A DNA stretch of 36,298 nucleotides from a virus: IMG/VR virus record IMGVR_UViG_3300030329_006107, positions 1 through 36,298 of that record, one strand, 5' to 3'. The notes beneath the pieces were generated by a model. That model had not been told where the DNA came from and made no database searches. It saw nothing but the letters and a program-made list of their open reading frames with translations. The position numbers and the translations under genes were made by a program. How positions within the stretch are numbered: the stretch's first letter is position 1; each line of letters begins with the position of its first letter. Shown one piece after another: positions 3,954-23,364 of the stretch.

Positions 3954-4202
3954 ATGAGCGCATTATCAATATTGAACGCAGTTAGACAACGTTTTAAAGC
4001 ACAAGAATCAACCGCAGTGGCCACTCTTGAACTATATGTTAACAAATCCGCTGCTATTGCTGATCATTCTGATATAATTGGTGAAGTTGAAAAGCAAGTA
4101 CGAATACTAACCGAAGCTAGAGATTGCTTGGCCGTGATAGAATCCGTAATGCCCGACACGGCGCAGCCAACAACTAATCAAGTCCAAGAAGGTGAAGTTT
4201 AG
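3954..4202 (+). CDS. Small helical phage protein, 82 aa
   Basis: An 82-residue protein, mainly alpha-helical through residues 3-65 with Ala/Leu/Ile spacing suggesting a helical hairpin, then a polar tail. It starts 3 bases after the previous stop, preceded by GGGG. Its last 29 bases overlap the 3' end of the convergent protease gene on the other strand. It is the last of the rightward run of small genes. No function recognised. Confidence 0.65.
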   Translation: MSALSILNAVRQRFKAQESTAVATLELYVNKSAAIADHSDIIGEVEKQVRILTEARDCLAVIESVMPDTAQPTTNQVQEGEV

Positions 4203-7685: not shown

Positions 7686-8453
7686 ATGTCTCACATTTCA
7701 TTTTCGGAAATTAAAAACTGGAACCAATGCGCTTATTATCATAAGCTAACTTACATTGATAAACTCAAAGGGTTTGAAGGTAATTTATATACTGCTTTTG
7801 GTTCTGCTTTACACACTGTTTGTGAGAAGATTGTTATTAAAGATATTAAAGATAAGAAGTCTCTTTTTCAATTATCTTTTTCTAATGAAATCAACAACTT
7901 ACCAAAGACGATCCAAGAGAATATTGACACAAAAATGGTGTCTGATATGCGTCGACAAGGTGATATGTTAGTTGATTTAATCTTGCCTCAACTAAAGAAG
8001 AACTTCGAAAAGTTTGAAGTTATTTCTGTTGAAGAAAAGATTTACGAACCTATTGAAAATCATGACCGTAAATTTAAAGGATTTATCGACTTAGTTATTA
8101 AAACTGAAGACGGTAAATATCACGTAATCGATTGGAAATCGTGTTCTTGGGGTTGGGACATGAAAAGAAAGTCTGATCCAATGACTACATACCAGCTTAC
8201 ATTTTATAAGCATTATTTTGCTAAAAAGCATAATATCGACCCTAAAAATATTGAAACTTACTTTGCCTTACTTAAAAGAACTGCAAAGAAAGACAACGTT
8301 GAAGTATACCGCGTAACTAGCGGAAATCGTAAAACTGAAAATGCGCTTAACTTATTGGACAAAGTGTTGTATAATATAAAGCGCAAGAACTACTTCAAAA
8401 ACCGTCTTTCTTGCAAGAGGTGTGAATTCTATAAAACAGAATATTGCACTTAA
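7686..8453 (+). CDS. PD-(D/E)XK nuclease, Cas4/AddB-like with four cysteines
   Basis: A 255-residue RecB-family nuclease. Visible motifs are a FSEIKNWNQC start, GSALH with His43, GFID with Asp135, and IDWKS with Asp149 and Lys151, which together form the metal-binding active site. A later QLTFYKHYF helix matches the usual YxxQ-like motif. Cys15 near the N-terminus and a terminal CKRC plus C cluster (Cys243, Cys246, Cys254) reproduce the layout of the iron-sulfur staple in Cas4, AddB and Dna2. It would degrade or trim DNA ends, and in phages such genes usually serve recombination or host DNA breakdown. No cas1 or cas2 is nearby, so a CRISPR role is not suggested. Confidence 0.85.
   Translation: MSHISFSEIKNWNQCAYYHKLTYIDKLKGFEGNLYTAFGSALHTVCEKIVIKDIKDKKSLFQLSFSNEINNLPKTIQENIDTKMVSDMRRQGDMLVDLILPQLKKNFEKFEVISVEEKIYEPIENHDRKFKGFIDLVIKTEDGKYHVIDWKSCSWGWDMKRKSDPMTTYQLTFYKHYFAKKHNIDPKNIETYFALLKRTAKKDNVEVYRVTSGNRKTENALNLLDKVLYNIKRKNYFKNRLSCKRCEFYKTEYCT
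8347..8375 (+). promoter_or_regulatory. Candidate promoter in front of the glycan cassette
   Basis: TTAACT at 8347-8352 and a consensus TATAAT at 8370-8375 are separated by 17 bases, inside the 3' end of the nuclease gene. It would start transcription about 90 bases before the first glycosyltransferase. The position is sensible for an internal promoter of the cassette. Being inside coding DNA of an AT-rich genome, it could be chance. Confidence 0.35.
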
Positions 8454-8471: not shown

Positions 8472-9740
8472 TTGGATAAGAAAATTAAGGTATTGGTCTT
8501 GAGTGATCACCCGCTAAGTCCATCCGGAGTTGGTACTCAAACAAAATACATGATTGAAAGCCTGATAAAAACAGGCAAATTTAGTTTTTATTGTTTGGCC
8601 GGTGCGATGAAGCACCTTGATTATAATATAACAAAAGTTGAAGGTTTCGGAGATGATTGGGTAATCATGCCTGTTGATGGATACGGAACTCCAGAACATG
8701 TTCGAACTTTAATGAGGAATGAAAAACCAGACATTGTTTGGTTTATGACAGACCCAAGATTTTGGGGCTGGTTATGGGAAATGGAAGATGAAATCCGCCC
8801 AGTTGCTCCCATGGTATATTATCATGTTTGGGATAACTATCCTTATCCAACTTATAATAAAGCTGCCTACACATCAAATGATGTTATTGCATGTATATCA
8901 AAAGTAACTCATGATATTGTACAAAATGTCTCACCGGAAGTTGAGAGTTACTATATACCACATTCAGTTGACACTAATATTTTCGATAAAATTGATGAAA
9001 GCACTGTACAACAGTTCAGAGAAAGTCATTTTTCAAATAATGATGGTAAATTTTTAATTTTTTGGAATAATAGAAACGCCAGACGTAAGCAAAGTGGCTC
9101 TTTAATTTATTGGTTTAAGAAATTTTTAGATAAAGTGGGGCACGATAAAGCACAATTATTGATGCACACCGACGTTAAAGACCCTCATGGACAAGATTTA
9201 GAAGCAATCGTTCATAGTCTGGGATTGATTAACGGAGAGGTTATGTTCTCTCAGCAGAAGGTATCAGCATTTCACATGGCTATTTTATATAATATGGCAG
9301 ATTGTACCATTAATGTTTCTGACGCTGAAGGATTTGGTTTGTCGACTTTTGAATCTTTGGCATGTGAAACACCAATTATTGTTAATATGACAGGCGGACT
9401 TCAAGAACAAGTAACAGATGGTAAAAATTGGTTTGGAGTTGGAATTCAGCCAGCTTCTAAAGCAATTATTGGTTCACAAGAAATTCCATGGATTTATGAA
9501 GATCGAGTTTCTGAAGAAGATGTAGTTAATGCTTTGCTTAAACTTTATAATATGTCTAAAGAAGATCGTCAAGCCCTTGGAAAAGCCGGCCGCGAACACG
9601 TTATAAAAAATTATAATTTTGATCAATATACTAAAAGATGGGAAGAGCTACTATTAGATGTTCACGAGCGTCATGGATCGTGGGATACAAGAAAAGGCTA
9701 CAATTCCTGGGAATTAATTGAAATTGGAGCAGCAGCATAA
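8472..9740 (+). CDS. GT4-type glycosyltransferase
   Basis: A 422-residue GT-B glycosyltransferase. The N-terminal domain opens with a Rossmann strand and a Gly-rich turn (LSDHPLSPSGVGTQ). The C-terminal domain has the family's nucleotide-sugar motif DAEGFGLSTFESLAC (the E-x7-E pattern) followed by TPIIV. It should be a retaining transferase working on the cytoplasmic face of the membrane. The start codon is TTG, supported by AAGGAG at 8460-8465 six bases upstream and by the fit of the first strand. It is the first gene of the glycan cassette, and its TAA overlaps the next ATG (TAATG). Donor and acceptor sugars cannot be inferred. Confidence 0.9.
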   Translation: MDKKIKVLVLSDHPLSPSGVGTQTKYMIESLIKTGKFSFYCLAGAMKHLDYNITKVEGFGDDWVIMPVDGYGTPEHVRTLMRNEKPDIVWFMTDPRFWGWLWEMEDEIRPVAPMVYYHVWDNYPYPTYNKAAYTSNDVIACISKVTHDIVQNVSPEVESYYIPHSVDTNIFDKIDESTVQQFRESHFSNNDGKFLIFWNNRNARRKQSGSLIYWFKKFLDKVGHDKAQLLMHTDVKDPHGQDLEAIVHSLGLINGEVMFSQQKVSAFHMAILYNMADCTINVSDAEGFGLSTFESLACETPIIVNMTGGLQEQVTDGKNWFGVGIQPASKAIIGSQEIPWIYEDRVSEEDVVNALLKLYNMSKEDRQALGKAGREHVIKNYNFDQYTKRWEELLLDVHERHGSWDTRKGYNSWELIEIGAAA

Positions 9741-11836
9741 TGAAGAAAAAAATATTAATTAGAGGACCAGTTTTAACTCAATCCGGTTACGGAGAACATT
9801 GCAGATTTCTTTTAAGGTCTCTTAGGAAATATGAAGATATATTTGATTTGTATGTTATTGCCGTTAACTGGGGGAAAACAAATTGGCAGTTTGAACAAAC
9901 AGAGGAAAGAGAGTGGTTTGATTCTCTTATTAAGAAAACACATGAGCATATCCAAAAACAACGTGGACCAATGGATATTTCTATTCAAGTAACAATTCCA
10001 AATGAATGGGAAAAGTTGGCTCCAATTAACATTGGTGTGACTGCTGGAATTGAAACTGATAGAATTAGCAGGAAGTGGATCGAGAAATCACAAATAATGA
10101 ACAAAATTATTGTTGTATCAGAACATGCCAAAAAAGGATTTGATAAAACAAAATACGATGTGGTAGACACCAGGACAAACCGAGAAGTAAAAGATTGGAA
10201 ATGTCAAGTACCTGTAGAAGTGGTACACTACCCAGTTAAAAGTTTGGAAAAAACAAAACTAGATTTAAAATTAAAACATGATTTTAATTTTCTTGTAGTG
10301 GCTCAATGGGGTCCAAGAAAAAATCTTAAGAATACCATAAAGTGGTTTATGGATGAATTTAAGAATGATGAAGTTGGTTTAGTTGTAAAGACAAATTTAG
10401 CTAAGAATTGTATTGTCGACAGATGGAATATGGCTGACAGATTAAAAAACATCGTTAAGGGATTTCCAGATGCCAAGTGCACAGTTCACTTATTACATGG
10501 ATATATGACAGAAAAAGAGATGAATGGGTTGTATACTCATCCCAAAATCAAGGCGATAGCGTCCCTTACTCATGGAGAGGGTTTTGGCTTGCCTCTTTTC
10601 GAAGCTGCATATAATGGACTGCCAGTTATTGCAACTAATTGGAGTGGTCATTTAGATTTCTTGTATATGCCAGTGAAAGATAAAAAAGGCAAAACAAAAA
10701 ACAAACCAATGTTTTCAAGAGTGGCGTATGAGTTAAAAGAAGTTAAAAAACGTGCTGTTTGGCCAGGAGTTATTGATACTGACGCTCAGTGGGCTTTCGC
10801 GGAAAAAGGTTCGTATAAGATGAAGTTGCGCGATGCTTTTAAAGATATTGGAAGACACAAATCCGCAGCTAAAAAATTACAAAAACACATTTTAGAGAAC
10901 TTTACTGAAGAAAAACAGAATTTAGATTTTGCAACAAAGATCTTAGGAGATGGAGTTACGAAAGCAGAGAACGCCAAATATGTATTTGTAAGTGATTTCT
11001 TCGCAAACCAACTTCAGGGTGGAGCAGAATTGAGTCTGCAGACTTTAATTGACAAAGTATCCGAAGAAAGCATTCAAATTAATTCATCGGATTTAACAGT
11101 AGAATATGTTAAGAGAAATAAAGATAAGACATGGGTTTTCGGCAATTTTACGCAAGCTTCTAAAGATGCAATTGAAAAAGTAGTAGAAGAAAAAGTCAAT
11201 TATAATGTGATTGAATTTGATTATAAGTTTTGTAAATACAGAAACTTAGAGTTGCACGAGACCCTAGAAGGTGAGCCGTGTAATTGTGCAGGGGAAGATC
11301 ATGGACAAGAAGTGGGCAAGTTCCTGTCCGGAGCACAAAATGTGTTCTTCATGTCTTCAGTCCAAATGGATGTGCATTTAAAAAATATTAAATCTCTTAA
11401 AAAGTCTAAATGTGTTGTCTTATCGTCGATTTTCGATGATAAGTTCTTTGACACGATTAAACAATTGAGAGAAATATATAACAAAAAAGAAGATAAATGG
11501 GTTGTGTCATCATCACCATCATGGATTAAAGGCTCTAAAGAAGCTGAACAGTGGTGTGTTGAAAACAATAAAGAATATGATAAGATGCACGGACTATCTT
11601 ACAAAGACGCATTGGTAACTTTAGCCAAATCAAAGGGGTTGTGTTTCTTGCCAACTGGCGCCGACACATGCCCCAGATTGGTGATTGAAGCTAAATTACT
11701 AAACTGTGAACTTGAATTAAATGAAAATGTGCAACATGTTACAGAAGATTGGTTCAATACAGATGATTTACAAGTAACAGAGGATTATCTCAAGGGTCGA
11801 CCCGACGTATTTTGGAAAAAGGTGATCGGTGGTTGA
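9740..11836 (+). CDS. Bifunctional (tandem-domain) glycosyltransferase
   Basis: A 698-residue protein with two GT-B-like regions. Residues 1-400 form a GT4-type transferase with a QSGYGEH loop near the N-terminus and the donor-site motif THGEGFGLPLFEAA followed by GLPVIATNWSG. From about residue 413 a second unit begins (VFVSDFFANQLQGGAEL), rich in charged residues, with a Cys pair at CNCAG and a C-terminal LPTGADTCPRLVIEAKLL segment that resembles the donor site of GT-B enzymes. The two halves may add successive sugars. It is translationally coupled to both neighbours: TAATG at its start, and an 8-base overlap at its end. The first half is secure, and the second half is less so. Confidence 0.85.
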   Translation: MKKKILIRGPVLTQSGYGEHCRFLLRSLRKYEDIFDLYVIAVNWGKTNWQFEQTEEREWFDSLIKKTHEHIQKQRGPMDISIQVTIPNEWEKLAPINIGVTAGIETDRISRKWIEKSQIMNKIIVVSEHAKKGFDKTKYDVVDTRTNREVKDWKCQVPVEVVHYPVKSLEKTKLDLKLKHDFNFLVVAQWGPRKNLKNTIKWFMDEFKNDEVGLVVKTNLAKNCIVDRWNMADRLKNIVKGFPDAKCTVHLLHGYMTEKEMNGLYTHPKIKAIASLTHGEGFGLPLFEAAYNGLPVIATNWSGHLDFLYMPVKDKKGKTKNKPMFSRVAYELKEVKKRAVWPGVIDTDAQWAFAEKGSYKMKLRDAFKDIGRHKSAAKKLQKHILENFTEEKQNLDFATKILGDGVTKAENAKYVFVSDFFANQLQGGAELSLQTLIDKVSEESIQINSSDLTVEYVKRNKDKTWVFGNFTQASKDAIEKVVEEKVNYNVIEFDYKFCKYRNLELHETLEGEPCNCAGEDHGQEVGKFLSGAQNVFFMSSVQMDVHLKNIKSLKKSKCVVLSSIFDDKFFDTIKQLREIYNKKEDKWVVSSSPSWIKGSKEAEQWCVENNKEYDKMHGLSYKDALVTLAKSKGLCFLPTGADTCPRLVIEAKLLNCELELNENVQHVTEDWFNTDDLQVTEDYLKGRPDVFWKKVIGG

Positions 11837-12551
11837 TACAATCCAAACAATGTGGGTTGGTAATAAATTATCGACAATGGAAAAATTAAGCCTAAGTTCC
11901 TTTGTTAAGAACGGCCACGAAGTACATCTATATACATATTCTGATGTGGAAGGTATACCTGAAGGTGTAGAGGTCAAAGACGGCAACACAATTCTTCCGG
12001 AAGAGATGATTTTTATGTACAAGGACCATAAAAGCTACTCAGCCTTTTCAAATTACTTCAGGTATAAATTGTTATTTGAAAAGGGTGGGTATTGGGTTGA
12101 TACCGATGTCGTGTGTCTTAAAAAATTTGATTTTAAATCTCCATTTGTATTTTGTTCTGAGGAGGTGCTGCCACTTAATCAGGGGAATACACATGTTGGG
12201 TCGTGTATTATTAAAATGCCTGCCGGCAATCCGATTTCCTTGGATGCATTCGAAACATGTATGGAAAAAAAAAGAGAGATGCTCGTCTGGGGTGAAATTG
12301 GCCCGCGACTGGTTAAACAAATGGTTGAAAAATATAATATGTCTTTCTTCGTTAAACCACCAGAAACGTTTTGTCCAATTCCGGGATGCATGTGGAACTT
12401 AGTTTTAAATCCAGAACAAAATATTAAGTTTGATGAGAAAACTTATGCAATTCATCTCTGGAATGAAATGTGGAGACGGAACAATGCAGATAAAGATATA
12501 AAATATCCTGTTAATTCATATTATGAAAAACTTAAGGAAGAGTATCTATAA
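11829..12551 (+). CDS. GT32-type glycosyltransferase (DXD sugar-binding)
   Basis: A 240-residue GT-A transferase of the capsular-polysaccharide/Och1 (GT32) type. It begins with the IQTMWVG strand typical of the family. A YFRYKLLFEKGGYWVDTDV segment carries the DXD metal-nucleotide motif (Asp91, Asp93). Near the C-terminus an AIHLWNEMW motif matches the usual His-Trp close of the active site. The start is a GTG at 11829 behind AAGGTG. The gene overlaps its upstream neighbour by 8 bases and the next by one base. It likely adds a hexose to a growing glycan. Donor unknown. Confidence 0.88.
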   Translation: MVDTIQTMWVGNKLSTMEKLSLSSFVKNGHEVHLYTYSDVEGIPEGVEVKDGNTILPEEMIFMYKDHKSYSAFSNYFRYKLLFEKGGYWVDTDVVCLKKFDFKSPFVFCSEEVLPLNQGNTHVGSCIIKMPAGNPISLDAFETCMEKKREMLVWGEIGPRLVKQMVEKYNMSFFVKPPETFCPIPGCMWNLVLNPEQNIKFDEKTYAIHLWNEMWRRNNADKDIKYPVNSYYEKLKEEYL

Positions 12552-13540
12552 TGTTGAATATTTTATATCTATGCGACAAGGATATATACGACACAAAAAT
12601 GTCTAGAGTTCGATTTCATGGAATGAGAGCTATTGGAAAAAGAAAAGATGTTAATTTAGTATGGTCCGGCCCCAAGTGGAAAGATTATAATAAAAACAAG
12701 TCAGTCAGTGAAAATATTAAAAATATTTATAAAGGATCCAAGCCTGATATAGTTGTTGCATATAAGCCTTTAAATTTAGTTAAATTTCGAGATTTAAATA
12801 TTCCAAAGTGTCTTCGTTATAATGAAATGTATGATGTTGATTGGACAAACAAAGAAATATTTGATAGTCGATCAAATTTGATTATATGTCATCATGAAAA
12901 TGATATGAACGAATTCAAAAAGATGTATTCCATGAAGAGAATCGATCGAACTCTAAGGCTTTATAATATTCCACACGCAGCCGAAAAAGTGATTTATAGA
13001 GATTATGGCATGCCAAAAAAATATGATATTCTTTTAGCTGGAGCAATTTTTACAAAATCTCTTTTGGGCAATCATTATCCTTTGAGAATACGTTTAGCGA
13101 AAGATATTCTTCCTAAAATGAACAAGAAATATAAATGTAATATTCTAAGACACCCAGGTGGAAATTTATATAATGCTGCTTCCGATCAAAATAGTTTCTT
13201 TTATGCACAACAACTAAGTTCTGCTAGAATATGTGTAACATGTAGTGGGCAGCCAAGATCTAGGTTTGGGAAATATATTGAAATTCCAATGTGCGGAACT
13301 GCACTAGCTGCCGACATGCCGGGGGAACAACAAGATCAATTTAAAGAGTTTATGATTGAGATTGATATGTCGATGACAGACGATGAAATAATTAATAAAC
13401 TTTCTTATTATTTGGATAACGAAGAAGAACTGAAAAAAATTACAAATAAAGGTATGGAATATGCAGAAAATCATACACAAGAAAAATATGCAGAAAGTTT
13501 TGTTAATATAGTAAAAGAGTTCTTGGAGGAAACAGGATGA
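12551..13540 (+). CDS. GT-B family glycosyltransferase, CgeB/Glyco_trans_1_2-like
   Basis: A 329-residue protein with a GT-B fold pattern: an N-terminal ILYLCDKD strand, an IVVAYKPL strand in the first domain, a linker PKKYDILLAGA opening the second domain, and a donor-site region with FGKYIEIPMCGTALAADMPG. The end (GMEYAENHTQEKYAESF) is the usual C-terminal helix of GT-B enzymes with a spore-coat CgeB or Glyco_trans_1_2 character. It is coupled at both ends (TAATG and ATGA). The donor is unknown. Confidence 0.8.
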   Translation: MLNILYLCDKDIYDTKMSRVRFHGMRAIGKRKDVNLVWSGPKWKDYNKNKSVSENIKNIYKGSKPDIVVAYKPLNLVKFRDLNIPKCLRYNEMYDVDWTNKEIFDSRSNLIICHHENDMNEFKKMYSMKRIDRTLRLYNIPHAAEKVIYRDYGMPKKYDILLAGAIFTKSLLGNHYPLRIRLAKDILPKMNKKYKCNILRHPGGNLYNAASDQNSFFYAQQLSSARICVTCSGQPRSRFGKYIEIPMCGTALAADMPGEQQDQFKEFMIEIDMSMTDDEIINKLSYYLDNEEELKKITNKGMEYAENHTQEKYAESFVNIVKEFLEETG

Positions 13541-14238
13541 TTGTTATAAGCTCCACGGGAGGATCTGGCTCTAGTTATGTCGCAAACCAGTTCACAAATT
13601 CAAATTGGTCAGTGTGCCTTCGACCGGACGGCGGAAAACAAAAAGCAACTCATACACCATCTCAAATATTTCATGAGAGAATGGATCCTATAATCGGGCC
13701 CAACGCTATATACGAAAAATCAACTCAAAAAGAAATGTTTGATGTTGCATATAAAGGCTTAAAAAGCCTCGATCACTCAAAAATTATGCTTCTGTGTATG
13801 ACATGGGGCGGATTAGGATTTCTTAATGAAATTGAGGAAAAGACAATTTTCCTTATTAGAGATCCAATATTCGCTTTTAATTCATATTCAGGCGGTGGCT
13901 GGCGCCTCGAAGGCGGACAAAGAAGAATAAAATACGTCGACGCTAGCGGCCCAAATGATAAAAAATGGATTGATGCATGGATGGGAGATTTCTCACACTG
14001 GCTCGATGGCGCCAAATATGCTTTACAGGCACAAAAAGAGGGTAAAGGACATATTGTTAGATACCATAATTTTAGAGAAGATTGGGCTAAAATTCCAGAC
14101 GTCCCGCCAATTCATCTAAATTTTAATTCTAAAGATGTTTTTGCAAAAATTCAAGAGAAAGATTATTTACAAATTGAAACTATTGCCTATATTAAGAGTA
14201 AAACGAAAGATGTGTGGAATGAGATTAAAGCACTTTAA
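13537..14238 (+). CDS. Sulfotransferase-like protein 1
   Basis: A 233-residue P-loop protein that fits the PAPS-dependent sulfotransferase family. Residues 5-14 (SSTGGSGSSY) form the 5'-phosphosulfate-binding loop. FLIRDPIFAFNSY (Arg108, Ser116) is the 3'-phosphate-binding motif. The P-loop lacks the lysine of the usual KxGxxW/KSGTT form, as occurs in some carbohydrate sulfotransferases. It would move sulfate from PAPS onto a sugar or another acceptor. A GGAGG site precedes the ATG, which overlaps the previous TGA. The APS kinase gene about 5 kb downstream in the same cassette could supply its donor. A nucleotide kinase is the main alternative, but the RDP-x5-S-Y motif favours sulfotransferase. 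Confidence 0.75.
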   Translation: MIVISSTGGSGSSYVANQFTNSNWSVCLRPDGGKQKATHTPSQIFHERMDPIIGPNAIYEKSTQKEMFDVAYKGLKSLDHSKIMLLCMTWGGLGFLNEIEEKTIFLIRDPIFAFNSYSGGGWRLEGGQRRIKYVDASGPNDKKWIDAWMGDFSHWLDGAKYALQAQKEGKGHIVRYHNFREDWAKIPDVPPIHLNFNSKDVFAKIQEKDYLQIETIAYIKSKTKDVWNEIKAL

Positions 14239-14250
14239 AGGAAAACCCAA

Positions 14251-15897
14251 ATGCCTAAAAAAATTAATTTTCCAATCCATGGGGCCCCGAAACAAGTTCG
14301 GGGCCGAATTAATAAAACTTTAGGCAATAATGAACTTCGTGAGTATTTAGCATCTAAACGAGAGACTTCAAAATCTAAATTTTTAGAAAGTATAGCTGAG
14401 TATGTTGATTACAAGAAGATTGAGAATCCAAAAGTCCTCTTAATCGGTCCATGCATTACTATTCCAAAGTATATGCAAAAGAGATGTATTCCACCCCTGG
14501 GAATTAGCTATGTAGCGGCTTCTCTAGAGAAAGCGGGCATTGATGTGGAAATGCTCGATCTATGCGTTGAAGGGTGGTCTACGGAGCGATATAGCGGCAA
14601 TCTGGTTACATATGGCAAACCTCCGCAAGATATTGTTGATCAATTAAAAGAAAAACAGTACGATATTGTTGGTTTGTCTGTATTATTTTCGACGGATCTG
14701 CCAAATTTGTATGAAGCAACACAAGTTGTCAAGGAGACATTGCCAGATTCTTTGGTCGTCGTCGGAGGATTGCATCCTACAATATATCCAAGAGAGATAA
14801 TAGATTTAGATCTAGAGTTCAATAAGAAAAGAACAGTCGATTTTGTTGTACGAGGCGAAGGCGAATTTAGATTTGTTGATTTCATCGATAACTTAAAAGA
14901 AGGAAAAATAAATAAAAAAGCTGATGGTCTTGTTGGCTTCATAGGGGATGAATTGTTTATTAACCCACAAATAGACAACATTGAAGACATTGATAAAATT
15001 CCATTTCCGGCGTTTCATATGTTACCAATGGAAAAATACTTTGAGATTAATATTCCTTTTTCGCCAGTTCCACAAGGAGAAAGAGTTCTCCCAATGTTGA
15101 CGACAAGAGGATGTCCAGTCGGATGCTCTTTTTGTGCCAATACAAATACTTGGAAGAAGCATAGAAAACGATCAATTGAAAATATTATGGAAGAAGTTCG
15201 TTATTTAAAAGATAATTTTAATGTTGATGAGCTACAATTTGCAGATGATAATTTGACTTATGATATGGTGTATGCTTCTGAGAAATTTAAAGCATTAAAA
15301 GAAGAAAATTTGCTTTGGTGTACACCTAATGGTACAATGATAAACAAATTATCTGAAGAAATAATTGATCTAATGGCAGCTTCTGGTATGTATCAAATTA
15401 CTCTATCTTTAGATAGTGCCAACGCCAGAACTCTTAAAGAATTGCACCACAAGCCTGTAAATTTAAATTCTATACCGGGTTTGATTAAAAAATGCAGAGA
15501 ATTAAATGTTTTTACTCATGGTACTTTAGTTGTTGGAATGCCTGGAGAAACTTTGGAAGAAATCCTAGAAGGATTTGAATATATTAAAGAAGAATTGGAT
15601 TTTACTAGTATTTCTACTTTTATTGCAGCTGCGATTCCTGGATCTGAACTATATCATAATATGCTAGAACAAGGAAAGGTCACTAAAAAAACTGCTCGGG
15701 AAATAGACACAACAAAATCGAAGATTATGTTGGCCAATATCGATCCAAAAGAATTAGAAGAAGCCATAGAAAAATTCCAAACAGAATTTTTAAATATTGT
15801 TAAAAAAAGAGATCCGGAAGAGTATAATAGAAAATATAAAAAGTTAATTCAATCCGGACGTTGGGATGAAAATCAGTGCGGTGGTAAACTAACTTAA
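14251..15897 (+). CDS. B12-binding radical SAM enzyme
   Basis: A 548-residue protein with two recognised domains. Residues 65-215 form a cobalamin-binding-like domain (VLLIGPCITIP, then PPLGISYVAASLEKAG, then VVVGGLHPT). Residues 275-480 form a radical SAM barrel with CPVGCSFC (Cys288, Cys292, Cys295), the CxxxCxxC ligands of the 4Fe-4S cluster. A GMPGET motif follows. This is the class B layout of enzymes that methylate unactivated carbon or phosphorus, though others rearrange or cyclise their substrates. Its place among glycosyltransferases suggests a sugar or lipid substrate. The start at 14251 follows AAAGG. A strong hairpin (14283-14305) lies inside the first 20 codons. Confidence 0.9.
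   Translation: MPKKINFPIHGAPKQVRGRINKTLGNNELREYLASKRETSKSKFLESIAEYVDYKKIENPKVLLIGPCITIPKYMQKRCIPPLGISYVAASLEKAGIDVEMLDLCVEGWSTERYSGNLVTYGKPPQDIVDQLKEKQYDIVGLSVLFSTDLPNLYEATQVVKETLPDSLVVVGGLHPTIYPREIIDLDLEFNKKRTVDFVVRGEGEFRFVDFIDNLKEGKINKKADGLVGFIGDELFINPQIDNIEDIDKIPFPAFHMLPMEKYFEINIPFSPVPQGERVLPMLTTRGCPVGCSFCANTNTWKKHRKRSIENIMEEVRYLKDNFNVDELQFADDNLTYDMVYASEKFKALKEENLLWCTPNGTMINKLSEEIIDLMAASGMYQITLSLDSANARTLKELHHKPVNLNSIPGLIKKCRELNVFTHGTLVVGMPGETLEEILEGFEYIKEELDFTSISTFIAAAIPGSELYHNMLEQGKVTKKTAREIDTTKSKIMLANIDPKELEEAIEKFQTEFLNIVKKRDPEEYNRKYKKLIQSGRWDENQCGGKLT
14283..14305 (+). other. GC-rich 9-bp hairpin at the 5' end of the radical SAM gene
   Basis: The arms GGCCCCGAA (14283-14291) and TTCGGGGCC (14297-14305) are perfectly complementary around a 5-base loop ACAAG. 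The hairpin begins 32 bases after the ATG at 14251 and is much richer in G+C than its surroundings. No T-run follows, so a simple intrinsic terminator is unlikely. It could affect translation initiation, mRNA stability or RNase processing. Confidence 0.6.
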
Positions 15898-15906
15898 GCA
15901 ATTATA

Positions 15907-16023
15907 GTGACAAAAGATAGAATAGAAAAAATCAAAAAAGTGAATTTAGACATTGAAACAAGTGCGCATATCAAGAGAATTGTAAAAGAATTGTGCAGCA
16001 AAATAAGGAGATTAAATGTTTAG
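15907..16023 (+). CDS. Possible 38-aa ORF between radical SAM and licD genes
   Basis: The 118 bases between two cassette genes hold a 38-codon frame from GTG 15907 to TAG 16021-16023, overlapping the licD start by 8 bases. The predicted peptide is basic and helical (TKDRIEKIKKVNLD, then HIKRIVKEL). It is in the same frame as the radical SAM gene, directly after that gene's TAA. There is no Shine-Dalgarno sequence. It could be a remnant of a longer C-terminus, a small gene, or nothing. Confidence 0.3.
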   Translation: MTKDRIEKIKKVNLDIETSAHIKRIVKELCSKIRRLNV

Positions 16024-16675
16024 TAAAGAAGATAGATATCATATTAGCAATTGTTCAGAAAAAGAATGGCATAATTTAATAACTGAATTATTCGATGACA
16101 CGGGCCTCGATGAGCAGAATGCAACCGAAGCTTTGTTTAAAGTAGATGATTGCCTAAAGCAAAAAGGCTTAAAGTATTGGTTATGCTATGGAACTGCACT
16201 AGGTTTTTACAGAGACGGAAACTTTATTCCTTGGGATGATGACATCGATATTCATACAATCGCTAGCGATTATGAAGCTGTGTTCGACGAAATAAAAGAT
16301 CTTTTTATTGAAAATGGTTTTATCGTCCGCGCCGTAAAAAGAGATGTATCAAGCAAAATGTCTCTTTTTTATAAAAAAATTAAAATACAAATTCAAGGTA
16401 TTTATGAAACAGAAGACGAGCCAGGTATGATTCAAACAAAATTATTTAAATATCCAAAACAGTTTTATTATGATAAGGCAGAGAAGTATAATTATAAAGG
16501 CCGCGTCTTTTTATTACCAGGACCTGCTAGTGAATATTTAACATTTTGCTATGATAAAAATTGGAATATCCCACAAAATATACCAGACTGGAGGGATTAT
16601 ATGAATATAGAACAATTAAAAAATGCTCACTGGATAGCTGCACACATTCAACGTTCTGGCGGGAAGAAAAAATAA
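16016..16675 (+). CDS. licD: LicD-family phosphotransferase
   Basis: A 219-residue LicD/fukutin-type protein. The signature lies at residues 55-79: WLCYGTALGFYRDGNFI followed by PWDDDIDI, with Asp74-Asp76 and Asp78 as the metal-binding acids of the nucleotidyltransferase fold. LicD proteins transfer phosphocholine from CDP-choline to surface glycans, and relatives transfer ribitol phosphate or other phosphodiester groups. AAGGAG lies 5 bases before the ATG. The gene sits between the radical SAM enzyme and the second sulfotransferase. Zwitterionic or phosphodiester decoration of the glycan made here is the likely role. No CDP-choline synthesis gene is seen in the window. Confidence 0.88.
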   Translation: MFSKEDRYHISNCSEKEWHNLITELFDDTGLDEQNATEALFKVDDCLKQKGLKYWLCYGTALGFYRDGNFIPWDDDIDIHTIASDYEAVFDEIKDLFIENGFIVRAVKRDVSSKMSLFYKKIKIQIQGIYETEDEPGMIQTKLFKYPKQFYYDKAEKYNYKGRVFLLPGPASEYLTFCYDKNWNIPQNIPDWRDYMNIEQLKNAHWIAAHIQRSGGKKK

Positions 16676-16677
16676 AA

Positions 16678-17463
16678 ATGTCTGATTTTATCGAAAAAGA
16701 AATAGTAAGACTGCAAAATAAATATGGGCTGGTTTTTGTTAAGCCAAACACTATTTTAATATCATATCCAAAATCTGGAAGAACTTGGTTGAGAATGATG
16801 TTGGCCAAGTTAATGAATGAGACATATAATAAAGCAAATAATGAAAAATATGAAATATTTCCAGCCCTCCACGATTCTTATAAACAAATAAAGGAAAGAT
16901 TTAAAAAGGATTATAAAAATTTAAATATTGTTTTCCTCCACAGACATCCAGCTGATGTAGCCATATCACACTATAAAGAGCTAACAACTAGTGGCCTCTC
17001 CGGCCTTAACGATTACGACGGCACTATAAGTGATTTTATTAGAAGCAAGGTTTATGGAATAAATAAGATAATTGAATATAATAATAAGTGGGCTGAAAAG
17101 GGTGGTAATTTTAATCGCTTTTTAATAATGTCTTATTATATGTTGCACAATGATCCTGCCACATGCCTATCTGCCATCGCTCAAATAATTGAGATACCAG
17201 CAACCAAAGAATATATTGAAAGCTCTATTGAATATGGTTCTTTTGAAAATATGAAAAAAATCGAAAATGGTGTGGGTGAAAACTTGCTCAAGAATTACAA
17301 AGGTAATTTTGGACATGGACCTGGACGCGTCCGCGTCGGAAAATATAATAATTATCACAACGTTTTAAGTAAAGAAGACATAGAATATGTTGAAGAGTGT
17401 ATGAAAAATAGTTTAATTACATACATTTATGATGATGATAACAAGGAAAATGATGATTTATAG
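16678..17463 (+). CDS. Sulfotransferase 2 (Sulfotransfer_1 type)
   Basis: A 261-residue protein with all the marks of a PAPS-dependent sulfotransferase. SYPKSGRTWLR (residues 29-39) is the 5'-phosphosulfate-binding loop. FLHRHPADVAISHY (Arg89, Ser97) is the 3'-phosphate site. Near the C-terminus, RVRVGKYNNYHNVLS matches the family's RKG-like motif plus Gly and Trp/Tyr region. I chose ATG 16678, two bases after the licD stop. The frame is open back to a TTG at 16561, but that part overlaps licD and resembles no sulfotransferase N-terminus. The sequence is clearly different from sulfotransferase 1, so the two probably modify different positions. Confidence 0.9.
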   Translation: MSDFIEKEIVRLQNKYGLVFVKPNTILISYPKSGRTWLRMMLAKLMNETYNKANNEKYEIFPALHDSYKQIKERFKKDYKNLNIVFLHRHPADVAISHYKELTTSGLSGLNDYDGTISDFIRSKVYGINKIIEYNNKWAEKGGNFNRFLIMSYYMLHNDPATCLSAIAQIIEIPATKEYIESSIEYGSFENMKKIENGVGENLLKNYKGNFGHGPGRVRVGKYNNYHNVLSKEDIEYVEECMKNSLITYIYDDDNKENDDL

Positions 17464-18325
17464 AAAAGAGGTGGATGGTTTTGATTGGGTTTTAAATATT
17501 TCAGACGGCGGCATCGGCTCAACCTTATATAACGCTAATACTCCAGGTAAAGATTACAAATTCGCCCGAGAAAGCATGTTTATGCAGCTTTTAGATACTG
17601 TTATAGGGGAAGGTATGACCTGCATTGATTTAGGCGCTAATATAGGCTATGCGACGATGTTTATGTTAAGAAATTCGGGTGATTCTGGAACAGTTTATGC
17701 GATTGAGCCAGATCCTCATAACCTACGCCTACTTAAAATCAATTTGGCCGAAAACGGATATAGGAATAAATGTGAAAAAACACAGTGTCTTATAACTGAT
17801 AAAGATGGAAAGAGTGAATTTTGGATTGCGCGCCACCCAAATCTTAATAGTGTTAGAAAAACAAGGCATAGTGTCCGACGTGAAATTATTGATTGTTTCA
17901 CATTGAAAACATTTTGTTCCACAAGAAAATATCCTAACTTTATTAAAATGGATATTGAGGGACATGAAGTAAAGGTATTCGAAAGCGGTTATGAATACTT
18001 TAAAAATAATGAAGGAGAAACACATTTCCTTCTAGAAGTGCATCCACAGTATTATGATAGTAATAACAACTTCGCAAAAATTCTTAATAAATATTATGAT
18101 ATTGGTTTTAAAATAAAGTATTTGGTTGGGACTCCTTCTAAAACTCTGCCTCCTTTTAGGGATGCTGGTTATAAACCAATAAAACAAATTGAGTCTGATG
18201 GCTGGGTTCGGTCCCTGTACGAGAATATTCCTCAAAAAGACGCTATTAAGTTTGCATGCAATTTGTTTAATAATGTTCATGGGAAAAAAGCAGTTCGCAG
18301 CATTATGGTTTCAAGGGAGAAATAA
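17453..18325 (+). CDS. FkbM-family methyltransferase 1
   Basis: A 290-residue SAM-dependent methyltransferase of the FkbM type. Motif I is CIDLGANIGYA (residues 57-67), the acidic loop is YAIEPDP (82-88), and the later KMDIEGHE (Asp167) with an FLLEVHP strand is the FkbM signature. Members methylate hydroxyl groups of sugars or polyketides. Two in-frame ATGs (17450 and 17453) follow AAGG; 17453 has the better spacing. It overlaps the sulfotransferase gene by 11 bases. An O-methylated sugar in the final glycan is the likely product. Confidence 0.88.
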   Translation: MIYRKEVDGFDWVLNISDGGIGSTLYNANTPGKDYKFARESMFMQLLDTVIGEGMTCIDLGANIGYATMFMLRNSGDSGTVYAIEPDPHNLRLLKINLAENGYRNKCEKTQCLITDKDGKSEFWIARHPNLNSVRKTRHSVRREIIDCFTLKTFCSTRKYPNFIKMDIEGHEVKVFESGYEYFKNNEGETHFLLEVHPQYYDSNNNFAKILNKYYDIGFKIKYLVGTPSKTLPPFRDAGYKPIKQIESDGWVRSLYENIPQKDAIKFACNLFNNVHGKKAVRSIMVSREK

Positions 18326-18329
18326 TAAA

Positions 18330-18950
18330 ATGATAAAAGTTAATTTGTTTTACGGAGACGATTATAAAGGAGAACAAGTAGAATTTGAATTTAAAGACGG
18401 ATCTGTCGCTATCGACTGTGGCGCGAATATAGGAGAGGTGACACATTTTCTGTCAGAAGCAGGCTTTGAAAAAGTATATTCATTTGAGCCAAATCTTTAT
18501 GCATTCAACATTCTACAGAGAAGATTTGCAGATAATCCTAAAGTTGAATGTTTGCCAAAGGCGGTTACAAATTCTTCAAAATCAGGACCAGGAAAGCTAT
18601 ATTTTCACAAAAAAGCAAACCAGAATCAAATAAAATATTCTACAGGGTGTTCGACCGCACCAGATAAGCATAATGTTGATGAAAACAATTTTATGGTTGT
18701 AGAGATGGTGGGTATTAGTGATTTTATCAAAAGTTTAGATCGCCCTGTGGGGATGCTAAAAATTGATGTTGAAGGTACCGAAGCAGATATTTTAAACGAC
18801 TTATTTGAATCTGGACTCATTAATGAGATTGGTCAAATATTTGTTGAGACTCATGAAAGCAAGGTACCATCTTCACAAAATGATATGAAATTGATAAGAG
18901 AGAGGATAGAAAAAGAAGGAATTAAAAATATTCATCTAGAATGGGAATGA
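18330..18950 (+). CDS. FkbM-family methyltransferase 2
   Basis: A 206-residue FkbM methyltransferase, shorter than its neighbour and only distantly similar to it. AIDCGANIGEV (27-37), YSFEPN (50-55) and KIDVEGTEAD (Asp146) are all in place. The start at 18330 follows GGGAG and comes 4 bases after the previous stop. The frame extends upstream, but only by overlapping the previous gene. The short N-terminus before motif I suggests a minimal catalytic domain. Two tandem FkbM genes imply two methylation sites or two different sugars. Confidence 0.87.
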   Translation: MIKVNLFYGDDYKGEQVEFEFKDGSVAIDCGANIGEVTHFLSEAGFEKVYSFEPNLYAFNILQRRFADNPKVECLPKAVTNSSKSGPGKLYFHKKANQNQIKYSTGCSTAPDKHNVDENNFMVVEMVGISDFIKSLDRPVGMLKIDVEGTEADILNDLFESGLINEIGQIFVETHESKVPSSQNDMKLIRERIEKEGIKNIHLEWE

Positions 18951-18954
18951 AACA

Positions 18955-19686
18955 ATGATTAGCACAAGAAAAAGAAATATATTAAAAGCAGCAAGTTGGA
19001 AAACTTTAGGATTTATCACACTTTCAGCTTTGACATATGCGATAACTGGCTCTTTAAAACAAATGACATATATTGCAATTTTATATCATCTTTGCATGTT
19101 GATGGCTTACATGTTTCATGAGCGTCTTTGGGATAAAATTCGTTGGGGTAAAACCAAAGGTCTGGCCATACAAATGACCGGAATGTCAGGCTCAGGAAAG
19201 AGTACCTTGACAAAACTTGTTTCCCAGCGCTTGAAGAAAAGAGGATTATTAGTTGAGATAATTGACGGAGATGAATACAGGGCAAATCTATGCAGCGATT
19301 TGGGATTTTCAAAAGAAGATAGGAATACAAATATTCGTCGCCTTGGTTTTGTAAGCAAAGTATTATCTCGCAATAATGTAATCACAATTATAGCAGCAAT
19401 CAATCCTTATGATGAAATAAGAAAAGAGTTGGTAAATAAAAATAAAAATTTAAAAACTGTTTATGTTGAATGCAAGATGAACGTGTTAATTGAAAGAGAT
19501 GTTAAGGGATTGTATAAAAAAGCACTACTTCCTGATGGCCATCCAGATAAAATTTATAACTTTACTGGTATATCCGATCCTTTCGAGGCACCCACTAATC
19601 CAGATTTGGTTATAAATACTGCTAAACAACCAGTAGATAAGTCTGTTAAACTATTAGAACAATTTATATTAAGAGAGATATCATGA
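18955..19686 (+). CDS. cysC: DUF2061-APS kinase fusion
   Basis: A 243-residue fusion. Residues 8-65 are a DUF2061 membrane domain, with KAASWKTLGF at its start, hydrophobic helices, and the closing FHERLWDKIRWG. Residues 70-243 are a complete adenylylsulfate kinase: P-loop GMSGSGKS (76-83), DGDEYRANL, FSKEDRNTNIRR, INPYDEIR, ERDVKGLYKKAL, and FTGISDPFEAPTNPDLV. It phosphorylates APS to PAPS, the sulfate donor. DUF2061 should tether it to the inner membrane. No ATP sulfurylase is seen, so APS would come from the host. Its place in an operon with two sulfotransferases strongly suggests a dedicated sulfation supply rather than cysteine synthesis. Confidence 0.93.
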   Translation: MISTRKRNILKAASWKTLGFITLSALTYAITGSLKQMTYIAILYHLCMLMAYMFHERLWDKIRWGKTKGLAIQMTGMSGSGKSTLTKLVSQRLKKRGLLVEIIDGDEYRANLCSDLGFSKEDRNTNIRRLGFVSKVLSRNNVITIIAAINPYDEIRKELVNKNKNLKTVYVECKMNVLIERDVKGLYKKALLPDGHPDKIYNFTGISDPFEAPTNPDLVINTAKQPVDKSVKLLEQFILREIS

Positions 19687-20066
19687 AAGAAGTAGATAAT
19701 CACTATAAAGCAGCCACACTGGCTATAGATTTCGACGGTGTGGTGCACAAGTACTCGAAAGGCTTCCAAGGGCTTCAAAACGCCTACGACGGCCCGAATG
19801 AAGGTACTAGGGAGGCGCTAGAAACGCTCCTCGACCGCGGTTTTAGGTTGATTATTGTGTCTTCTAGACCTGTTGATGTCATTAATGAGTGGTTAAAAAA
19901 GTACGATATGGCTAAGTATTTCGAAGAAGTGACGAATATTAAACGTCCAGCGAGTTTTTATATCGATGATCACGCTCTATATTTTAATAAAAATCTTGAA
20001 AATCCTTGGCAAAAGGTATTAGATGTGGTGAAAACCCCCAAGAAAAAGGGAGAAAAAAATGGCTAA
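19683..20066 (+). CDS. Small HAD-superfamily phosphatase
   Basis: A 127-residue minimal HAD hydrolase. Motif I is AIDFDGVVH (Asp16, Asp18), motif II is IIVSSRP, and motif IV is YIDDHA. Phages carry many such 110-130-residue proteins of unknown substrate. In this operon a sugar-phosphate or nucleotide-sugar by-product, for example PAP from sulfation, would be a sensible substrate, but this is inference. The ATG overlaps the preceding TGA. Bases 19741-19860 are about 53% G+C (63 of 120 counted), well above neighbouring DNA. Confidence 0.8.
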   Translation: MKEVDNHYKAATLAIDFDGVVHKYSKGFQGLQNAYDGPNEGTREALETLLDRGFRLIIVSSRPVDVINEWLKKYDMAKYFEEVTNIKRPASFYIDDHALYFNKNLENPWQKVLDVVKTPKKKGEKNG

Positions 20067-20952
20067 ATGCTTAGTAACAGGACACAAGGGCTATATCGGC
20101 GCCCATTTGTTTAAAAAATTGCAAGATCTTGGACACGAGGTTCAAGGAATTGATCTACAAGAAGAATATGGTAAGGATATTAATACAATACAGGGATTAG
20201 CAGAAGATGCAGCCGGTAATTTTCATCCTCATTATTGGAATTTTAAACCAGAATATGTATTTCACCTGGCATGCTTTCCAAGAGTTGCTTACAGCGTCGA
20301 AAATCCAGTGTTAACAATGAAAAATAATATCATGGTTGGCTCTCATGTACTTAATTTTGCTAGAAAAGTCGGAGCAAAAAGGGTTATTTATTCTAGTTCA
20401 TCATCAATTGTCGGTAATGGTCACGGACCAGAAAGCCCGTATGCCCTTCAAAAAATGGTCACAGAGCTAGAATGTCGTCTTTATACTAAGCTTTATAAAC
20501 TAGATACAGTTTCATTACGATATTTTAATGTATATTCAGAAGATCAAGAAACTAACGGTTCATATGGAACGGCAATTGCAAACTGGATGCAAGCAATTAG
20601 AGATAAAACAGTGCCTTATATTACCGGCAACGGGAAGCAGAGAAGAGATATGCTACACGTAAGTGACGCTGTTGATGCTAACATATTTGCAATGAACTTT
20701 GATAGATATGATTTTTCTGGAGATGTTTATGATATCGGAACGGGAACAAATGTTTCTTTGAATGAAATTAAGGAAATTGTACAAAAATATTTTCCGAATG
20801 TTAATTTTGATTATGTTGAACCAAGACCTGGTGATGTTTCTACAACTTTGGCTGAAGTAAGAAAACTCGGCAATATTGGTTGGCAAGCCGGCGTCTCTAT
20901 TAAAGAGGGGATCAATAATTGCTTTAAGGAACTTAAAAATGAACTATCCTAG
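20059..20952 (+). CDS. NAD-dependent sugar epimerase/dehydratase
   Basis: A 297-residue extended short-chain dehydrogenase. The NAD-binding TGHKGYIG is at residues 7-14, VIYSSSSSIVG carries the catalytic Ser region, and PYALQK holds Tyr128 and Lys132 of the YxxxK pair. RRDMLHVSD, then DIGTG, is the sugar-nucleotide-binding end of the family. It acts on UDP-, GDP- or dTDP-sugars (GalE, Gmd or RmlB-like). The start follows GGGAG and overlaps the HAD gene by 8 bases. With the dehydrogenase next to it, production of a uronic acid or its epimer is plausible. Confidence 0.9.
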   Translation: MAKCLVTGHKGYIGAHLFKKLQDLGHEVQGIDLQEEYGKDINTIQGLAEDAAGNFHPHYWNFKPEYVFHLACFPRVAYSVENPVLTMKNNIMVGSHVLNFARKVGAKRVIYSSSSSIVGNGHGPESPYALQKMVTELECRLYTKLYKLDTVSLRYFNVYSEDQETNGSYGTAIANWMQAIRDKTVPYITGNGKQRRDMLHVSDAVDANIFAMNFDRYDFSGDVYDIGTGTNVSLNEIKEIVQKYFPNVNFDYVEPRPGDVSTTLAEVRKLGNIGWQAGVSIKEGINNCFKELKNELS

Positions 20953-21793
20953 TACAGATAGCATAGGAATTGTTGGCCAAGGCTTTGTCGGCACCGCTCT
21001 TCGCGAGGGATTAAAAAACACTTTTGAAGTTGAAACTTATGATAAATTTAAAACAGAGGGATCAACTTGTACTAGTTTAGAAGAGTTGTGTGAAAGGACT
21101 TTCATACTGTTTTTGTGTCTTCCAACACCTATGAGGAAAGATGGGTCCTGTGATTTGTCAATACTAGAAGATGTTATATCTGAGCTAGATATAGTTTCGA
21201 AAGGAGATCATATTGCTGTTATTAAGTCGACAGTTCCTCCTGGTACCACAAGAAGGTTTAATAAACAATACACAAATTTGAAAGTTGTATTCTCCCCAGA
21301 ATTTCTAACAGAAGCAAATAGTATTGATGATTTTAAAAACCAAACCAGGATTATTGTCGGAGGGGAACGGCCGGCCTCTACAATTATTAAAAATATGTTT
21401 AGGATTGCATTTCCAAAAATACCCATTGTTAAAACTGGGTCGAATACTGCTGAGATGGTTAAGTATTTTACAAATTGTATATTGGCAACAAAGGTCAGCT
21501 TTGCAAATGAAATGAAGCAGATTTGCGAAAAAGCAGATATTGATTACGATAAAGTTGTTGAGTATGCTCTTTATGATGAGAGAATTGGTAAAACCCATCT
21601 CTCCACACCAGGACCTGACGGACATTTAGGTTTCGGCGGGTCGTGCTTCCCCAAAGATATCAATGCTTTGATTCATTATGCGAATGAAGCTGACGTCAAT
21701 CCATTGGTGTTATCTGCCGTCTGGCAAAAGAATTTAGAGGTCCGTCCCGGAAAAGATTGGGAAAATCTTAAAGGCCGAGCCGTGAGTGAATAA
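20939..21793 (+). CDS. Short UDP-glucose/GDP-mannose dehydrogenase
   Basis: A 284-residue nucleotide-sugar dehydrogenase. NAD-binding GIVGQGFVG is at residues 10-18, STVPPGT and VFSPEFL are in the first domain, EMVKYFTNC is in the central helix, and GFGGSCFPKD carries catalytic Cys236. It would oxidise the sugar C6 alcohol to a uronic acid. Family members usually have about 390-450 residues; this one stops about 48 residues after the catalytic Cys and lacks the C-terminal sugar-nucleotide-binding domain. Downstream DNA does not encode it. I chose ATG 20939, behind AAGGA and overlapping the epimerase by 14 bases. It ends the glycan cassette. Confidence 0.87.
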   Translation: MNYPSTDSIGIVGQGFVGTALREGLKNTFEVETYDKFKTEGSTCTSLEELCERTFILFLCLPTPMRKDGSCDLSILEDVISELDIVSKGDHIAVIKSTVPPGTTRRFNKQYTNLKVVFSPEFLTEANSIDDFKNQTRIIVGGERPASTIIKNMFRIAFPKIPIVKTGSNTAEMVKYFTNCILATKVSFANEMKQICEKADIDYDKVVEYALYDERIGKTHLSTPGPDGHLGFGGSCFPKDINALIHYANEADVNPLVLSAVWQKNLEVRPGKDWENLKGRAVSE

Positions 21794-22306: not shown

Positions 22307-22706
22307 ATATTTATTAATAGCATCAGCACTTTTTAATTGTGTGCTGGTAATAACACTTACTGGTATTGTACCATTTTTACTATTTCTATCAATATGTCTT
22401 AATATTGTGTTTATATGGTATGTTAAAACTTTATTAAATCAAATAAATGACATTAATGATGATATTGAAGAAATGTTTGGCACATTTGATGATTTTACAA
22501 AACACATTGAGGGCATTTACCAATTAGAATTATTCTATGGTGATGAGACGCTGGAATCTGTAATCAATCATTCTAGAAATGTTTTAGATGAAATAAATGA
22601 GTATAGACAAAAATTTTATTTAGATGGCGAAATTGTAGATCCAGATTTGCTAGAAGATGAAAAGGAAGAAAATTTTGACACAAAAGAAAAAGAGGAAGAG
22701 CAATAG
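22299..22706 (+). CDS. Two-helix membrane protein
   Basis: A 135-residue protein with two adjacent transmembrane segments at residues 3-22 and 25-44, followed by a long acidic helical cytoplasmic or periplasmic domain (coiled-coil-like, residues 45-105) and a Glu-rich tail. AAGGA lies very close to the ATG. It overlaps the zinc ribbon gene by 8 bases and the sigma factor gene by up to 50. Proteins of this form occur next to gp55 in related phages; function unknown. Confidence 0.75.
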   Translation: MIKYLLIASALFNCVLVITLTGIVPFLLFLSICLNIVFIWYVKTLLNQINDINDDIEEMFGTFDDFTKHIEGIYQLELFYGDETLESVINHSRNVLDEINEYRQKFYLDGEIVDPDLLEDEKEENFDTKEKEEEQ

Positions 22707-23364
22707 GTATTTTACTCAAGAGCATGAAGATGCAATTGTAAATTACGCTTTAACTGATGATTTAAAAATAAGAACTGAACTATACGGAAGATGGATCGGC
22801 CCCGCGTTTGACCAAATGGTTGATAAAATTGTATATACCTATAAGTTTACAAATTTACCCAACATTGAATCACTCAAAGATGAGTGTAAAGTTTGGTTAA
22901 CAACAATATTAGATAAATTTGAACCATCGAAAGGATCAAAAGCGTTTTCATATTTCAGTGTGATAACTAAGAATTGGTTTATTCACAAGGTCAAGAAAAA
23001 CACAAAGATGCTCCAAAGAGAGGTGCAATATGATATTTTGCCCGTTGATGTAGAAAAGAAATATATGGTAACCTATAATCCATATGAAAAAGACCGTGAA
23101 GAATTTGAGTTTTGGTTCCTCTTAAATAAAGAAATTGGTAAATGGGAAAATCTCAAATTAAAAGAAAAGGAACAGAAAGTTTTAAACGCAATTAAGATAT
23201 TGATGGAAAGTGTTGACGAAATAGAAATTTTTAATAAAAAAGCTATTTATCTTTACATGAGAGAAATTACTGGTCTCAATACAAAACAGATCGTAAATAA
23301 TTTAAATAAAATAAGATCTAAGTATAGACAATTTAAAAAAGATTGGGAAAATGGAAAAATCTAA
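22657..23364 (+). CDS. 55: T4 gp55-like late sigma factor
   Basis: Up to 235 residues, resembling the T4 late-transcription sigma factor gp55. Visible marks are FTQEHEDAIVNYALT near the N-terminus, RTELYGRWIGPAF, and the core block KFEPSKGSKAFSYFSVITK then NWFIHKVKK (about residues 87-113), equivalent to sigma region 2. A basic C-terminal helix (RSKYRQFKKDW) follows. It replaces the host sigma for late promoters, usually TATAAATA. The ATG at 22657 gives a very basic leader. A TTG at 22675 has a better ribosome-binding site (GGAAG) and may be the real start. Confidence 0.85.
   Translation: MKRKKILTQKKKRKSNRYFTQEHEDAIVNYALTDDLKIRTELYGRWIGPAFDQMVDKIVYTYKFTNLPNIESLKDECKVWLTTILDKFEPSKGSKAFSYFSVITKNWFIHKVKKNTKMLQREVQYDILPVDVEKKYMVTYNPYEKDREEFEFWFLLNKEIGKWENLKLKEKEQKVLNAIKILMESVDEIEIFNKKAIYLYMREITGLNTKQIVNNLNKIRSKYRQFKKDWENGKI

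Follow-up and report, generated by a model that had tools for sequence, protein, structure and literature searches.

A run of 14 consecutive genes in a marine T4-like phage (positions 8472-21793) is probably a swappable cassette of this lineage for decorating glycans, in which an APS kinase (CysC) would feed sulfation and a second arm, based on phosphorus, may act beside it; its chemistry and its target are predicted from gene content. Within the phage clade, the link between cysC and sulfotransferase genes is well supported.

The analyzed stretch (36,298 nucleotides, hereafter the window) opens an 87.9 kb virus record, of which it covers the first 36.3 kb. A T4-type portal (phrog_213), a terminase (phrog_2) and a gp55-like late sigma factor (phrog_234) were identified in the record, which bears out the T4-like assignment made in the first-pass annotation. 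The portal is only ~38% identical at best to those of cultured phages, the nearest being Flavobacterium phage immuto and Microcystis phage Mel-JY01. Among cultured phages, the matches to APS kinases, PepM-family proteins and B12 radical SAM proteins are all distant, and the sulfotransferase has no match. The proposed cassette sits between a PhoH-like gene (4976-6283; phrog_2765, E = 3e-114) and a PD-(D/E)XK nuclease gene (7686-8453; PF12705) on the upstream side and the late sigma factor gene (22657-23364; phrog_234) on the downstream side, all on the plus strand. A PhoH homologue also lies upstream of the island in phage contigs L164 and L168, and the nuclease, a conserved island head, precedes the first glycosyltransferase gene in L152, L164 and L168. 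Over 500 viral loci conserve the sigma factor, which anchors the island downstream and served as an independent marker. The sole long minus-strand gene in the window encodes a trypsin-like peptidase (4174-4923; PF13365, 58 bits). A 758-residue protein (23662-25938) has a sub-cut-off Amidase_2 match and is possibly a tail-associated peptidoglycan hydrolase. Downstream of the island, a giant open reading frame (27013-36298; 3,095 residues or more), which the first-pass annotation put forward as a possible target of glycosylation, has no Pfam domain; it runs into ten undetermined bases just past the window end (record positions 36299-36308), so its true end is unsure. The T4 late promoter TATAAATA was found 5 times against 5.5 expected, and sigma-70 sites and terminators were not above chance.

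The 14 genes all lie on the plus strand; their junctions range from -35 to +12 bases, apart from a single one of 118 bases. The first-pass annotation had described them as coupled, and the open frames are indeed tightly packed, with an overlap or near-overlap between most neighbors. Its gene-family names were recovered with Pfam or NCBIfam for 13 of the 14; for the remaining gene (13537-14238), the name sulfotransferase has a basis in motifs only. Two GT4 glycosyltransferases form the conserved island core. The first (8472-9740; PF00534, 50 bits) is ~62% identical in L152, L164 and L168, and the second (698 aa, 9740-11836; PF00534, 41.5 bits) has homologues in L010, L014, L152, L164 and L168. 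These are followed by a GT32-like glycosyltransferase with a DXD motif (11829-12551; PF04488, PF04572), a further glycosyltransferase (12551-13540; PF13524, 27.8 bits, cut-off 25), a putative sulfotransferase-like P-loop protein (ST_A, 13537-14238), a B12-binding radical SAM methyltransferase of the Sden_1168 family (14251-15897), a LicD-family phosphotransferase (16016-16675; PF04991, 57.5 bits) and a predicted PAPS-dependent sulfotransferase (ST_B, 16678-17463). We start ST_B at the ATG directly after licD, in place of the TTG chosen previously. Two FkbM methyltransferase genes (17429-18325, PF05050, 61.6 bits; 18330-18950, PF05050, 47.4 bits, with its start set at an ATG of the reading frame) precede a DUF2061-CysC fusion, the predicted APS kinase (18955-19686). 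The last three genes encode a HAD-type phosphatase (19683-20066; PF13419, just over cut-off), an NAD-dependent sugar epimerase/dehydratase (20059-20952; PF01370, 147.7 bits) and a short UDP-glucose/GDP-mannose dehydrogenase (20939-21793; PF03721 and PF00984, TIGR03026 over cut-off). The dehydrogenase lacks the C-terminal domain, and similar short forms are found in L011 and L020.

The CysC fusion is over the curated APS-kinase cut-offs (PF01583, 156 bits, cut-off 21; TIGR00455, 176 bits, cut-off 139) and carries a DUF2061 domain at its N-terminus (PF09834, 42 bits). Alignment with solved APS kinases shows that the P-loop, DGD, RxTNIRR, INPY, KGLYKKA and FTG motifs are intact, and they are kept in the phage homologues. 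The best solved-structure match to the phage CysC is the APS kinase 5cb6. We found nothing on the DUF2061-CysC fusion in the literature searched. A similar fusion reads through on a plasmid of Gemmatirosa kalamazoonensis (L169:8001-8708), thus the arrangement is not confined to phages.

The earlier claim of two dissimilar PAPS-dependent sulfotransferases stands for ST_B, which scores 70 bits with PF00685 (cut-off 22) and matches cytosolic sulfotransferase structures. Its 5'-PSB (YPKSGRTW) and 3'-PB (FLHRHPADVAIS) motifs align with those of solved sulfotransferases. ST_A is a putative second one, for which no Pfam, PHROG or PDB match was found. The GGSGSS loop and IFLIRDP motif of ST_A are invariant in five homologues, and the protein aligns weakly to the phage sulfotransferase profile (hhalign probability 28% over 43 columns, against 0.2% for a CysC control). 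An AlphaFold model made with the five homologues (pLDDT 48) was of insufficient quality to search for similar folds, and further homologue searches returned the same four phages only.

The CysC fusion retrieved 22 viral loci, and a T4-type portal is visible in only six of these cysC-positive records, most of which are fragments. To avoid circularity, relatives for the association analysis were chosen through the late sigma factor (50 records, ~10 kb upstream of it), and the cysC-positive set was scored in the same way. The presence of cysC and of three sulfotransferase families was called with the Pfam cut-offs, and 64 records remained once duplicates had been merged. Five cysC-positive records were left out, four because they lack DUF2061 and have another context (G017, G018, G020 and G021) and one because its locus has no sigma marker (G009). 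Across the 64 records, many of them fragments, a sulfotransferase was found in 14 of 16 with cysC versus 6 of 48 without it (Fisher's test, P = 7.6e-8). When a borderline protein of L084 is added, P = 2.2e-7. The cysC state changes at least nine times on the sigma factor tree, and independent pairs on this tree favor joint change by 4.6 to 0.1, although with five pairs P cannot fall below 0.0625. The proposed tie between APS kinase and sulfotransferases is thus upheld in relatives identified by the sigma marker. The two cysC-positive records with no sulfotransferase over cut-off are G008 and G042. Thus cysC seldom occurs without a sulfotransferase; sulfotransferases at times occur without cysC, and PAPS made by the host would then suffice.

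The partners of the DUF2061-CysC fusion in relatives are sulfotransferases of Pfam families 1, 2, 3 and 4, and several of them directly adjoin cysC. In distant relatives the fusion is kept beside the Zn-ribbon/sigma-factor anchor, with other glycan genes around it. The phage CysC sequences mostly cluster together. The window CysC is nearest those of L007 and L008, two phages with distant sigma factors, a pattern indicative of exchange among phages. Four other loci (L021, L022, L024 and L025) encode an APS kinase without DUF2061, outside a glycan island and with no sulfotransferase found; its role may differ. A nucleotidyltransferase of ~133 residues with an HxGH motif is encoded beside or near cysC in L012, L013, L014, L016-L020, L024-L026 and L071 (for example, L016:11076-11486), and the window phage does not have it. 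Its nearest solved structures are NMN adenylyltransferases, its match to ATP sulfurylase is sub-cut-off, and it might be related to APS supply.

The first-pass annotation read the 14 genes as one integrated pathway, and this is not borne out by the comparison with relatives. The set recurs in just three close relatives: L005 and L006 have all 14 genes in order, and L023 has 13 of them, the HAD gene being absent. Elsewhere among the relatives, cysC, the sulfotransferases, LicD, the epimerase and the dehydrogenase are present in some and missing from others, and the radical SAM/LicD/FkbM block lies next to an apparent phosphonate pathway where no cysC is seen. The island is modular, and probably a swappable decoration cassette that relatives exchange for others. 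The FkbM genes (17429-18950) are 98-99% identical to those of L023 (L023:8487-9993), whereas most of their neighbors are 61-91% identical, a contrast that is suggestive of recombination within the cluster.

LicD and the B12 radical SAM enzyme would constitute the second, phosphorus-based arm, which is common to relatives with an apparent aminoethylphosphonate pathway. The window radical SAM enzyme is over the cut-off of the Sden_1168 "P-methyltransferase" family (NF038361, 584.5 bits, cut-off 575), and its homologue in L152 is just under it (570.5). Literature searches returned no paper on the substrate of this family of B12 enzymes. The window LicD is 43-47% identical to the LicD proteins of the PepM-carrying phages L164 and L152. 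In L152, which was found with the radical SAM query, a homologous block of four genes (the ST_A homologue, radical SAM, LicD and FkbM) directly follows genes for PEP-mutase-like, split phosphonopyruvate-decarboxylase-like, AEP-transaminase-like and cytidylyltransferase-like proteins (L152:6215-9302). The same five phosphonate-type genes are in the same island of the sigma-anchored phage contigs L164 (L164:10001-13091), L165 (L165:9998-13109) and L168 (L168:10001-13088), and L164 also has LicD and both FkbM genes. This phosphonate context is the most surprising by-product of the analysis.

The best families for the phosphonate-type genes are TIGR02320, TIGR03297 and TIGR03301, with all NCBIfam scores below the equivalog cut-offs; the PEP-mutase-like protein is below cut-off for TIGR02320 and over it for PF13714. 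The matches in the PDB are PEP mutase, a nucleotidyltransferase/class V aminotransferase fusion and ethanolamine-phosphate cytidylyltransferase. The signature of PEP mutases is EDKx5NS. All four phages have EDNx5CS at this site, so that a PEP-mutase reaction in these relatives is likely rather than certain. Searches with tblastn for PepM, Ppd, the transaminase and the cytidylyltransferase found none in the 87.9 kb window record or in a relative of 189.6 kb (G002). Given that the window phage is without the five genes, its LicD/radical SAM pair would use a phosphonate-type donor made by the host, or LicD would act on another substrate.

Based on sequence comparisons, the phage CysC most likely supplies PAPS to sulfation and not to sulfur assimilation. 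This reading is favored because cysC co-occurs with sulfotransferases, because CysH/CysD (PF01507) and the ATP sulfurylase Sat (PF01747) were not found over cut-off in 25 records, many of them fragments, and because cysC-sulfotransferase pairs exist in bacteria. In 28 of the 41 bacterial cysC loci nearest to the phage gene, a gene of the Sulfotransfer_3 type lies 20-105 bp downstream and neither CysD nor CysN was matched; six loci have CysD and/or CysN. These loci were chosen by similarity to the phage CysC, so the counts describe the partners of this CysC type and not a rate for bacteria. Such cysC-Sulfotransfer_3 loci without CysD/CysN are seen in Mucilaginibacter, Pedobacter and Chitinophaga (L033-L064, for example L035:10013-11430).

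Viral cysC could be an ordinary auxiliary metabolic gene of assimilatory sulfate reduction that lies near glycan genes by chance. Deep-sea virome cysC, reported together with cysH, has been read in this way (PMC9529941). The four records G017, G018, G020 and G021 also fit, as an APS kinase is present and no sulfotransferase was found. Given the lack of CysH/CysD and Sat matches, the strong association of cysC with sulfotransferases and its location within glycan islands, we consider this explanation unlikely. The CysC-like protein might also be a related small-molecule kinase that serves the phosphorus arm. The synthesis of the Campylobacter capsule phosphoramidate uses a CDP-amidate kinase, a relative of CysC, and the window cluster combines cysC with LicD and an enzyme of a P-methyltransferase family; in several relatives a cytidylyltransferase-like gene adjoins cysC. 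However, the protein passes the equivalog domain model for APS kinase (TIGR00455) and not that of the other subfamily (NF004041), its top solved match is an APS kinase, and no match to cysC was obtained in the examined loci of the four phages that carry phosphonate genes, which together make another kinase activity improbable. A more general objection is that the cluster is cargo drifting in a hypervariable region, without any joint function. Gene content does differ strongly among relatives, the degree of protein identity varies along the cluster, and stuffer DNA was raised, and left open, for the LPS clusters of T4-like cyanophages (PMC3037559). Overlapping open frames, a gene order maintained in three relatives and the non-random pairing of cysC with sulfotransferases are difficult to reconcile with cargo of this type, and we give the idea little credence.

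For the decoration cassette, we propose that the epimerase and the dehydrogenase feed the glycosyltransferases, which would build a short glycan. The host ATP sulfurylase would supply APS, which the DUF2061-CysC fusion would convert to PAPS, probably at the membrane. ST_B, and perhaps also ST_A, would then sulfate the glycan, and the FkbM enzymes may methylate it. No membrane-like segment was found in the 13 island proteins other than the CysC fusion, and the island encodes no system that would export a lipid-linked glycan. This mildly favors, as the acceptor, a virion protein that would be modified in the cytoplasm. Remodeling of the host surface is a close second. The same chemistry could place the glycan there as protection against superinfection or grazing, and we regard this as a serious possibility, though not the one we expect. 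Glycan genes of marine T4-like phages, including the glycosyltransferases of pelagimyophages, have been interpreted as changing the host surface (PMC7029224), surface phosphonoglycans were proposed as an anti-phage means of marine bacteria (PMC8931226), and CysC may be membrane-bound via DUF2061. On the other hand, neither a flippase nor a polymerase, ligase or membrane glycosyltransferase is among the island genes, so host machinery would need to be borrowed for a surface glycan. A still broader and rather doubtful extension is that a widespread marine T4-like lineage carries interchangeable decoration modules, one that makes PAPS for sulfation and one that makes CMP-aminoethylphosphonate, with P-methylation in some, and that these phages themselves produce both sulfated and phosphonylated glycans, with their virions as the most likely site.

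Glycan clusters of marine T4-like phages (PMC3037559, PMC7029224), viral cysC (PMC9529941) and single phage sulfotransferases (PMC10580990) are already known. The sulfotransferases of OM43 phages and of Synechococcus phage S-SRM01 were described as of unknown function (PMC10580990), and the tie to cysC gives such genes a testable one. Our literature search, which covered few subscription papers, returned no paper on a phage cysC-sulfotransferase link and no report of phage-encoded phosphonate biosynthesis, so novelty is not proven for either. With an apparent phosphonate pathway in the islands of relatives, phages are a possible source of sulfated and phosphonylated glycans in the ocean. Sulfate and phosphonate tags could alter the recognition between phages and bacteria at sea, and such glycans bear on defense and on marine organic sulfur and phosphorus.

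As in the cyanophages P-SSM2, S-SSM7 and S-SM2 (PMC3037559) and the pelagimyophages (PMC7029224), the window phage is a marine T4-like phage with a large and variable island of sugar genes, and in P-SSM2 the LPS/glycan cluster is likewise near phoH (PMC3037559). Unlike those islands, that of the window pairs an APS kinase with sulfotransferases and has a LicD/radical SAM arm; the word sulfotransferase is absent from both reports (PMC3037559, PMC7029224), as are adenylylsulfate and phosphonate from the latter. The deep-sea viral cysC (PMC9529941) also encodes a phage APS kinase, but that of the window is fused to DUF2061 and accompanied by sulfotransferases, without CysH over cut-off. No donor gene was stated for the phage sulfotransferases described previously (PMC10580990), whereas those of the window phage are linked to a kinase predicted to make the donor. 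The cysC-sulfotransferase pairs of the Mucilaginibacter type have a CysC that is ~50-57% identical and the sulfotransferase at the same 20-105 bp downstream, but they involve the Sulfotransfer_3 family only, lack DUF2061 and have no phage glycan island around them. Finally, the related phages carry, next to surface-polysaccharide genes, the enzyme classes with which marine phosphonate-producing bacteria synthesize aminoethylphosphonate and activate it by nucleotidyl transfer for surface glycans (PMC8931226). They differ from bacterial phosphonate producers in that the genes are phage-encoded, the signature is EDNx5CS and the decarboxylase is split in two, and the set is missing from the window phage.
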